A DNA stretch of 64,000 bases from Trachythela sp. YZ-2020 (Eukaryota > Cnidaria > Anthozoa > Malacalcyonacea > Clavulariidae). The stretch spans positions 1,240,001 through 1,304,000 of the forward strand of contig JADLSH010000061.1 of assembly GCA_016169945.1 (NCBI GenBank). The letters run 5' to 3'. Shown here piece by piece: positions 23,301 to 64,000 of this stretch. A program made the translations under genes and the position numbers. The notes below the pieces were generated by a model. That model ran no database searches, had not been told where the DNA came from, and saw nothing but the letters and a program-made list of their open reading frames with translations. Each line of letters opens with the position of its first letter. The stretch's first letter is position 1.

Positions 23301-26300
23301 CAACGGTGAATCATACTCACCATGGCTGCCAAATATGGAGTTGTAATCATATCACACGATTTGACGTCATACGTATGATATGAAAAAATAATAGCGCACG
23401 TCATGCACGAACAAAAACAATACTGCGTCGAAGAAGAATTATTCAAGCCTCTGTCTGCACAAACTTCGGCCTTGATCATTCTTTATATCATGCTCAACCT
23501 GGTTCAATCATTGTTAAATATTCGTGATGCATTTACATCCAGCAAAACATTATACCTACTATGTAATATCTGTAAAGTAAACGCAGCTTGATCATAATTT
23601 GATGTTGGCAGTTTCAGTTCCAACAATAAATTTATTTTCCAGTGTGTCAAATGCATGAAGCCGTACCAAAATCAATTACCGATCAAATTGCTTACGCGGA
23701 GTTACGCCTCTGCCAGAATTAAGTTTTTAATTAAAGTTGTGATGGATTATTCGATACGAATCCTGAGTTCCTGACATAAGCCAACCAAGGCAGGTAAATA
23801 CACTGTCCTTGCGATTTTTCAAGGCTCAAACCATGAATAAACGGAAACTCTTAAAATATTAAACAATGCTCACCTTTCTCTGTCCTCTGACAGTTATCAC
23901 ACATCCCTTTACATTCTTCATTTTTCCACTCCTCACCAAAATGTTGACCAATCAATGAACGACGACATGAAGGCATATCTTGACAATATGATAACATCTT
24001 GTAAAGATTTTCTAACCCAGTTTGCTCAGTGAAAACCTACAGATAAGAAAATTATTATATCAACCAAAAATCAGTGCGGATTTTTCAAGCATAAAAATGG
24101 AAAGTAAGATGCCTTTTTTCTATGAATTGTGAATTTTTGAATTTTGTACCAAAACTATTAATCCTATATATGATCCCTGTATTTTACGACCACATATGAT
24201 AATGGGATAGGTAAACTGTAAAGTTTAGTAATTTGCTAATTATAGCCATGCATAGAAATCATATATATATATAAAATCCCTTCTCCTATCTCTCCTCAGT
24301 CAAGCATTTGTCACCCCAAAATAGTTATAGCTACGAGTAAATATTAGGAACGTATCATGCCAGTGTACATGTAGATAGCTACTAACTTCCAGACAAAGGG
24401 GGCCTTCGTTCGAAATGTCGAAGCTCTTGTTGTATATTTCAGGTAGACTGATCCTAAAGACCCGAAGCTTACGATTAAATATTCTTTTTTCTGCATATAA
24501 ATCAACTCTGCTGGCCTCGTTCTAGAGTCAAAATTCTTTTAAGACATTCACAAGATAACAAGGTCAGTTGGGCCACTTTACACGGACGTATAGTTAATAC
24601 GGACGTAGAAGTGGTCAATGGCGGATTTGCTAGCATTCATTTTATAGTTGGTTCCAGACAAGAAATTAAGCACGGTTGCAGGAAGTCTTCGTTCCTGAAC
24701 AAATTCGATACGGCCGATTTACAAACTGGTATCAATGAAAAAAGTGGAGACATGATTTGACGGACTAGGCATTTCGTATCGATACAGGTTTTTACAATCA
24801 AATATAAGGGTTGAACAAAGATCCTGTCACCCTGTAACCCACAGAAACAACATGAAACTACAACGAAGACGACGACTACGACGACGACAACAAAAAACTC
24901 GACATAGTAATCAATTATGTACAGCATTATGTATTTTCTTACCATGCAGCTCTGTCGACTGGAATCAGTTGGATTATAATACACTATACAATGTGCTCTC
25001 TTGCTGTCCCTCCCAGCTCGTCCACTCTCTTGGTAATAATTTTCCATAGATTTACTCATTGTATGATGAATAACAAAACGAACATTAGCTTTATCTATAC
25101 CCATACCAAACGCTATCGTGGCCACGATCACCTGCAATACATAATTGATAGAGACTAGTGATTATGTATAGAGTTGGGAGACGTGATACAAACAAAGACG
25201 TGATTATTATCAAAACCGCAGATGCTTCCTGTCGCCCGAAATAACGTGTCATGTTTCGCCTCAAAACATTCAGAAATGCGACTACATTCCTAACTTCGTG
25301 GAATCGACATCTTGAAAATATCGACATCTTGAAAATATCGACATCTTGAAAATATCGACATCTTGAAAATATCGACATCTTGAAAATATCGACATCTTGA
25401 AAATATCGACATCTTGAAAATATCGACATCTTGAAAATATCGACATCTGACTGGTCTGCCAGAAATTGTGCTGAGATTAGCTAATAACGGTGTGATATTT
25501 CAACAGTAATAGGCGTAAAAATGTAGTCGCATTTCTGAATATTTTGAAACGAAAACATGGCACGTTTTTTCGCGCGACAGGAAGCATCCGCAGTTTTGAT
25601 AATATATAAGAGTGGAAGATGACGTTGAACGAACTATAACTTACCAAGCCATCATTATTTTAAAGTTTGAATCCAAAATGAGAATAATTTCAATACTCAG
25701 ACAATAGGTTAGCACTCAATTCCCAATGGTGGAAAAATAAATCGGATTCCCAATGGTGGAAAAATAAATCGGATCAAAGTTGGTCTTCTTTTATCCCAAT
25801 GATACAAAAAAGGTATCATTGGACAGCTAAAAGCCTAATGTCTATACCTAACAACCACCGCACGATAACATGCTAAAGTTGGATTATCCATTTTCTGATA
25901 CACCCAGTATATTCTGCCTCCTGCCATAAAGTACATGCAGGGCATGGGTAAAATTTGGTAGAGTGAGGAATACGGAATGCAGAATCTGCCAAAAAGGTTA
26001 TTGAGAATATACAGAAATACATTCACAGTATTCCTCCCACATAATGCCCGGGGGGCGGGAGGGAATTAAGATTGGGACAGTATGCGAATTTCTGACAAGG
26101 GCAAGTGGTAGTGCATGGTTTACCGCGCTTGTGTGTTGGAGCTGGGGGAAGTGGGCGTGCGATAAACCTCTTTAGAAACTGCTAGACACCGCAAACCGTC
26201 ATTTTAAGCATTAACCACGCACGTGGGTACTACGTCATATGCTAATATCCACGCTTGATAAAGCGTATTTGACCTATTCCTGCCACAGAGTGGGAATAAT

Positions 26301-62106: not shown

Positions 62107-64000
62107 TTTTTATCATACATACAGTACAAAGTTTATTCTCTATTCTGATTGGTCAACTAACTCCGCCTAATTCCCAATATCCTGTAGCTTTCACGTTATC
62201 TTTCACGTTATCTTTCACGAGTCCAAGCCCCTAGCGCGGTCGGCAGCTAGCACGCGAAATATGCCAGTTCGGAGTTTCGGGATAAAATTGCAGTTGAATC
62301 ATAACATGTACTGTAGCTAAGAATGGAAGAATTAAAATATGCATAGCAACTGTTCAAGCAATCATTTGTGTTTCACATTTAGCCACAATAGAACTGTCAT
62401 TAAATAATTTTTGTAGCAGCGTATTTTGTCTTCTGTGTAAAGCAAAATAAAGAAAGGCGCACTTAAGGGAAAACATTTTCTAATTAAAGCGAGTCAACCG
62501 TGAGGAAACTAATTGTTCCTCGAGCAACTTTGCATATTCAAATGATCAACTGAACAGTTGAATACTTCGAGTTTAAGATCTACGACGCAGCAGCTCAACG
62601 TGTTCGAAACAAAGAAATTCTTCATGCACAAATGAAATGAATATTTTTTGGCACCAGGGTATCCTCAACAACGTTGTCGTTCTTATCACGACCTTAAACT
62701 CAGCATTAATTATCACGTCTTTACAGCTACGTGAAAGCTTGCTGTGACGTTATAAGTTTTACTCAAAGTCGACCTTATAGCAGACACCGCACTGTTTCAG
62801 CCATCTTAGCTGTTTGCAGGTTTAGATGAACAATTTTCAAACATTTTTGAAACTGTGATGAAATTCCATAACGCTCTTTTTAGTCGCTGGGGCAACAGCG
62901 ACTATAGGTTTCCGTTTCATTTGTCGGCAATCTGAAATCGGTCACAAAACGACAAATTACGTTATTTTTAGTTAATTTATATGCCGTGACATATTTTCCA
63001 TATCTTCACTAGTGAGGATATCGATCACGTGATCATTTCCCGCCAATGGCTTCGTGTTTTGAAGTTGTCAATTTCATGATGACTATATAATAAAAAGAAC
63101 ATTACACGGTGGCTTGAAGATATTAATTTTATCTTCTCGTGTTGAAACAATATTTGACTCATTCGCTGCGCTCATTCGTAAAATATTGTTTTCACCACTC
63201 GAAGATAAAATTCATATCTTCGCGCCGCCGTATAATATCCTCTATATATTACATTCAGTATCTCATGAGCACGGTTGGCTATTCTCTCTATCGTTAGGGT
63301 TAGGATTGCAGAGGTGGAAAAAGTATCGGATCCTGGGAACCTAGTTCCCAGAAATATTTTTGGATCTGAACTTTAGCAGAAAATTTTTCACAGAAATCTC
63401 TAAAGTTAATAATTATTAATATGAAATTGAACACCACTGAATACCAAGAAGCAACACTCCAATCAGTCCAATGTCAAAATCAATCAATGATCCTTGAACC
63501 GCATTAATTATTAATTTCGAGTCTGAAACTCAGGTTCAAAGTATTGTACAAGGTGCAAGTTTCTTGAAGCCTGCAATATTGGCATGTTTGCTTTTGCCAT
63601 CACTGATGTTTTTTTACTTCTGTTTTTAACTATTATATGCACTTTTGGGTTCGACCCTATATGATCTGGTCCAGTGGCGGACTGAAATATTGGGGGTGCG
63701 AACTTAGGTTACCAACATTCATCTTTTCGTTGCTTCAAATCTCAGTTCTTAAAACCTTTTTGGCTTAAATTTCAATTCATTTTCTACTTAAATTATAGTC
63801 TAAATAAAAATAATAGTTGGTTTCAGGTTTCCGACCGACCTGTTAAAAATGTCACCGACCATAAACATTTTATTGACATAATTATAAAACAATTTCCTGT
63901 TTTTTAGCGAACATTTTTTCTTAAATAGCAGTCACATGGGGTCTGTGTGTCTGTCCAATATTTTGTTTGCCTTAATCATTATCTATAGTCATGATGTTAA
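62107..64000. repeat. Copy B continuation of RECQL intron 1
   Basis: Matches 37128-39240 with small indels, including the MITE at 62985-63255 and the start of the hAT element at 63672. The copy A block 33391-37127 is missing here. The duplication runs off the window end. Confidence 0.85.

Follow-up and report, generated by a model that had tools for sequence, protein, structure and literature searches.

The RECQL Gene

The gene present twice at this locus is identified by its deduced protein as RECQL (RECQ1), encoded on the minus strand of the window, i.e., the whole stretch of 64,000 nucleotides analyzed. Its complete version, termed copy A, comprises nine exons located at positions 41865–17136:

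41574..41865, minus strand: copy A exon 1, start codon and N-terminal part (tblastn, splice reading)
33057..33368, minus strand: copy A exon 2, Walker A and part of the DEAD domain (profile and tblastn)
29135..29376, minus strand: copy A exon 3, DEVH box (tblastn)
27643..27724, minus strand: copy A exon 4 (tblastn)
26538..26686, minus strand: copy A exon 5 (tblastn)
24943..25131, minus strand: copy A exon 6, end of Helicase_C (profile and tblastn)
23874..24036, minus strand: copy A exon 7, RecQ zinc-binding, single copy in the window (PF16124, tblastn)
22594..22946, minus strand: copy A exon 8, RQC winged helix, single copy in the window (PF09382, tblastn; donor CCCAG/GTATGA)
17136..17378, minus strand: copy A exon 9, C-terminal tail and stop (tblastn; boundaries read from the sequence)

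Joining of exons 1–8 at GT-AG sites resulted in a protein of 595 residues, the last of which originates from beyond the exon 8 donor. Among the best 120 of 7994 scored homologues, the closest relative of this protein was the helicase Q1 of Dendronephthya gigantea, showing 81% identity over the full query. The exon 2 ORF used as query retrieved a helicase Q1 fragment of Paramuricea clavata (91% identity, 75% of the query covered), and the human RECQ1 structure 2v1x aligns with the copy A protein over residues 59–587. Judged by protein similarity, the host is most probably an octocoral. Regarding the two ends of the gene, positions 41865–41548 translate into a sequence 72% identical to D. gigantea residues 1–104, and the ninth exon was found by tblastn with the D. 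gigantea query only (17375–17145, corresponding to residues 594–665).

Copy A carries two RecA-like helicase domains scoring above the cut-off (PF00270, 86.8 bits; PF00271, 67.8 bits) and a RecQ zinc-binding region (PF16124, 48.9 bits; cut-off 25). Furthermore, the RQC winged helix was recognized in the exon 8 ORF (PF09382, 27.6 bits; cut-off 23); in the spliced protein it reached 21.4 bits, i.e., below the cut-off of 23, and the 2v1x alignment passes through this region. In possessing the DEAD, Helicase_C, RecQ zinc-binding and RQC regions, copy A resembles RECQL/RECQ1 (ATP-dependent DNA helicase Q1), whereas the second copy differs from this enzyme in featuring only exons 2–6 within the window and stopping before the zinc-binding exon.

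Direct Repeat of Exons 2–6 and Its Boundary

A blastn comparison of positions 44001–64000 with 20000–44000 revealed that 24802–39232 recurs in direct orientation, in collinear blocks, at 50056–64000. The segments, their junction and the exons of the second copy, termed copy B, are as follows:

24802..39232: part of the duplicated segment in the window belonging to copy A (blastn)
50056..64000: part of the duplicated segment belonging to copy B, running off the window (blastn)
50055..50056: junction between the end of a stretch that is single-copy in the window and the start of copy B (no N)
61778..62089, minus strand: copy B exon 2, matching copy A exon 2
59413..59654, minus strand: copy B exon 3, matching copy A exon 3
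56900..56981, minus strand: copy B exon 4, matching copy A exon 4
52763..52911, minus strand: copy B exon 5, matching copy A exon 5
50218..50406, minus strand: copy B exon 6, the last RECQL exon before the join, matching copy A exon 6

The uninterrupted part of the match sets in at 24806/50060; the first-pass annotation, which had placed the start of the repeat at 24807/50060 and followed it to the window end, was right to one base. Direct orientation and the first boundary of the repeat are visible, and the homology reaches the window edge at 64000, beyond which the second boundary would fall.

Exons 2–6 are equal in length in both copies (312, 242, 82, 149 and 189 bases), feature GT-AG sites at identical places and identical phases, and contain no stops, which bears out the earlier description of these exons as duplicated with matching lengths, phases and splice sites and without stops. 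The zinc-binding and winged-helix exons are indeed missing beside copy B, as had been noticed before: when the window was searched by tblastn with three cnidarian RECQL proteins, exons 7 and 8 were found once, in copy A, and exons 1 and 9 likewise gave no second match. As the join falls in intron 6, the exons for the zinc-binding region, the winged helix and the tail occur only once in the window. The earlier designation of copy B as a helicase core holds for exons 2–6, which are open, and goes too far for the remainder, since exon 1, which we take to harbor helicase motif 0, would fall beyond 64000 and a full core is therefore not seen.

The whole window, including the join at 50055/50056, contains 0 N bases. 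Within the 1 kb to the left of the join, any sequence found again elsewhere in the window is at most 16 bases long, and hence the window contains no repeat that would account for a false overlap. Recombination between repeats at the breakpoint was considered and rejected, since the left flanks (42000–50056 versus 17000–24802) show no similarity to one another at 1e-5 and, moreover, recurring sequence of more than 16 bases is missing next to the join.

Insertions private to one copy were observed on both sides, so that A and B differ both ways:

53026..56356: copy B insertion (~3.3 kb) of the fold-back DNA transposon type, featuring inverted arms of ~1 kb and flanked by TCCATAC on either side
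57235–58052: copy B private stretch of 818 bases (versus 110 unaligned bases in A)
58582–59133: copy B private stretch of 552 bases (versus 3 in A)
30512..32103: copy A insertion of 1592 bases
33397..37116: copy A private stretch of 3720 bases

An ORF within a copy B-specific insertion (57222–57893, minus strand) has no Pfam match; it is similar in character to the C-terminal portion of a non-LTR retrotransposon.

Between the start of copy A and copy B, a broken multi-ORF stretch is located on the plus strand (43889–49305), the five scanned ORFs of which have no Pfam match. A query composed of two of its fragments yielded 184 relatives; among the best 120 of these, clusters P0128, P0129, P0131 and P0137, holding 7 to 41 sequences, showed 81–84% identity. 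Relatives among the matches listed originate from Paramuricea, Actinostola, Nymphon and Branchiostoma, and one is labelled as a Sedimenticola MAG. The stretch looks like a decayed multicopy element.

Divergence Between the Two Copies

Within exons 2–6, 11 of 974 bases differ between A and B, without indels and with five amino-acid changes (dN 0.0067, dS 0.028; NG86). The aligned introns differ at 210 of 6164 bases (3.4%) and feature 44 gap openings. This intron divergence is on the low side because two matching blocks fell to the collinear filter, namely B 50666–50871 (9 differences in 206 aligned bases) and B 51773–52310 (49 differences in 524); an out-of-order repeat match at B 62979 and matches weaker than 1e-30 (e.g., B 56409–56487) are likewise outside the count. 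Intron divergence is patchy, ranging from 0 to 19 differences per 200 bases (0 to 9.5%), and overdispersed, with a variance/mean ratio of 4.06 compared to a largest value of 2.39 in 5000 permutations. From 62837 onward, the copies are nearly identical, with two differences across the last five 200-base bins.

Constraint on the Exons and Polarity of the Amino-Acid Differences

If the exons had diverged at the rate of the local flanks, ~41 differences would be expected in them, compared to the 11 observed. In a neutral simulation, half (or a quarter) of the divergence was placed on copy B, introns within 400 bases served as the neutral rate, and both blocks dropped by the collinear filter were kept. 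With B unconstrained for half of the divergence, a mean of 14.9 amino-acid changes is expected and two or three are seen, the probability of three or fewer being 0.0002. Under neutrality of B, ~4 exon indels are expected and none is seen (P 0.019). With B unconstrained for a quarter of the divergence, the probability of three or fewer changes rises to 0.054, and a truncation of copy B late in its history is compatible with this latter figure.

The five amino-acid differences were polarized against 120 homologues including D. gigantea. Two of them look derived in A (residue 200, Y to D; residue 402, G to S) and two in B (residue 203, G to D; residue 331, E to Q), residue 121 being unpolarized. 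The states at A-200, A-402 and B-203 each occur in 0 of the 120 compared homologues, and Q at residue 331 in two of them. Residue 331 is polarized by one species only (E in D. gigantea; G in 111 of 120 homologues), and residue 402 by D. gigantea and Xenia (G; D in 97 of 120). Residue 200 of copy A (33061–33063, minus strand) is D, where all 120 compared homologues feature Y, H or F. The idea derived from this residue, that copy A represents the degenerate copy, is weakened by the occurrence of D at the same place in P0246, one of 11 homologous exon 2 sequences compared. Because the amino-acid differences split into two derived in A and two derived in B, the truncated copy shows no sign of being the relaxed one. 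Both copies were under RECQL constraint for most of their divergence time, as two alleles would be. In contrast, exon constraint would not be expected in a copy born without the zinc-binding and winged-helix exons, unless the truncated product is useful, a recent duplication joined two diverged haplotypes, or the exons were repaired by conversion.

Two Haplotypes Placed End to End as the Preferred Explanation

Copy A and copy B represent one RECQL locus in two diverged versions. The reading given preference, with a probability of roughly one half, is that they represent the two alleles (haplotypes) of one RECQL gene, placed end to end by the assembler. In a heterozygous octocoral, the assembler would have laid the two RECQL haplotypes head to tail: haplotype 1 would extend to 50055, and haplotype 2 would then re-enter in intron 6. 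Exons 7–9 missing from B would be a part of haplotype 2 dropped at the join and not a biological loss, and the join at 50056 would, by this inference, be absent from the animal itself. An assembly haplotig artefact, which the first-pass annotation had named as the finding that would overturn its own interpretation, would fit the sequence best.

Two alleles of one gene would entail constrained exons in both copies without any further assumption. Overdispersed intron divergence is expected for alleles because coalescence varies, and gene conversion would give the same pattern. Mean intron divergence (3.4%) is higher than the genome-wide heterozygosity documented in relatives and in this respect counts against alleles, but the value is local and patchy. 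According to the available excerpts of the respective genome reports, heterozygosity amounts to 0.71% (0.9% by k-mers) in P. clavata, the assembly of which was purged with Purge Haplotigs, uncollapsed haplotypes persisting at a low level according to its authors (PMC7467007); to 1.13% and 1.44% in two octocoral species purged with Purge_dups (PMC11959691); and to 1.86% in Gorgonia ventalina, for which purge_dups was followed by the manual removal of 33 haplotypic duplications (PMC12856254). All four of these octocoral assemblies were thus purged of haplotypic duplications (excerpts of PMC7467007, PMC11959691, PMC12856254), and D. gigantea is described as highly heterozygous in the excerpt available (PMC6447388).

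A gene falsely duplicated next to itself belongs to a documented class of assembly errors, as far as the available part of PMC9516828 describes it. The copies analyzed here diverge like alleles of one functional gene, and the locus resembles the heterotype false duplication as outlined in that part (PMC9516828) in its allele-like divergence, a partial copy beside a full gene and a markedly heterozygous host group, while differing from it in a join without N. In the same part of the source, false duplications are most often, although not always, separated by gaps, and one contig is also on record as containing a genuine allele-specific tandem duplication (PMC9516828). Since false duplications are mostly gap-separated according to this partial account, the lack of N in the window counts against the artefact, as does the lack of a repeat in the window that would explain a false overlap.

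Alternative Explanations

Because the join has no N, a genuine tandem duplication is ranked close behind the haplotype explanation and is only somewhat less probable. It would be a recent, true head-to-tail duplication of 24802–50055 (25.25 kb unit), in which copy B, upstream in transcription order, was 3'-truncated by a breakpoint in intron 6 and would be a non-functional partial copy, with A as the complete gene. The gap-free join is located in sequence occurring once in the window, the geometry is that of a simple tandem duplication, and the near-identical stretch from 62837 could be a conversion tract; moreover, placing a quarter of the divergence on an unconstrained B still leaves the probability of 0.054 stated above. 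Like known partial tandem gene duplications, the repeat is direct and gap-free and has its breakpoint in an intron; unlike these, the exons of the truncated copy are constrained and the second boundary is outside the window, where it is predicted at ~75 kb together with a second copy of 42000–50055. The constrained exons and symmetric amino-acid changes impose an extra assumption on this explanation, namely a recent birth between diverged haplotypes (unequal exchange), gene conversion, or late truncation.

It is highly improbable that copy B is a functional truncated helicase core acting as decoy or regulator, or a fusion splicing exon 6 to something downstream. In this case, B might be expressed as a RecQ core lacking the zinc-binding and winged-helix regions and selected as regulator or competitor of RECQL, or exon 6 of B might be joined to exon 7 of A; taken together, these two variants are just as improbable. 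Exons 2–6 being open and constrained would agree with such a product. An expressed truncated B would end just past the breakpoint at AATAAA (50018–50013, minus strand), which is located ~40 bases beyond the join, overlaps with the stop codon at which the exon 6 read-through frame ends, and is the only one on the minus strand in 49000–50300; on the other hand, AATAAA is common in AT-rich DNA. Splicing of B exon 6 to copy A exon 7 would yield a chimeric full-length enzyme, and, by phase, in-frame partners of B exon 6 are copy A exons 4, 6, 7 or 9 only. Against these variants, a B transcript running on past exon 6 would be antisense to the broken multicopy element at 43889–49305, exon 1 of B is outside the window, and allelism accounts for the exon constraint. 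The proposal of the first-pass annotation that B might be a decoy or new fusion has no direct support. Within the portion of literature titles and abstracts searched, no case of a truncated tandem RECQL duplication in invertebrates was found.

The suggestion that copy B represents an old pseudogene, having decayed free of constraint ever since A and B separated, agrees with the lack of a second copy of exons 7–9 in the window, but is highly improbable given the simulated probabilities for at most three changes (0.0002 with half, 0.054 with a quarter of the divergence on B) and for zero indels.

These results mainly call for caution, as an annotation of this assembly would list RECQL a second time in truncated form and might even record a gain of the gene. 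Should the duplication be real, it would exemplify a partial copy of a helicase whose core is intact; knowledge of RecQ enzymes would stay unchanged. Overall, the pattern of differences more closely resembles both parental versions of one gene placed in succession, or an ordinary duplication of recent date, than a gene of a new kind.

Further Features of the Window

Scanning the window against Rfam at gathering thresholds gave 0 matches. Two minus-strand ORFs (14472–15164 and 15583–16239) have DUF3504, QRICH1 and phage-integrase matches, and we take them to encode a Crypton-like tyrosine recombinase; an inverted repeat (15120–15225/15553–15658, 95% complementary) lies at these DUF3504/phage-integrase ORFs. 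A C2H2 zinc-finger ORF (5003–6454, minus strand) contains an array of 11.5 repeat units of 84 bases each, and its C-terminal part is copied again 4.4 kb off at 9368–9775 (minus strand). Furthermore, direct repeats at 2918–3622 and 11256–11991, matching in two pieces with 97–100% identity and separated by ~8.3 kb, represent another recent duplication or repeat pair.
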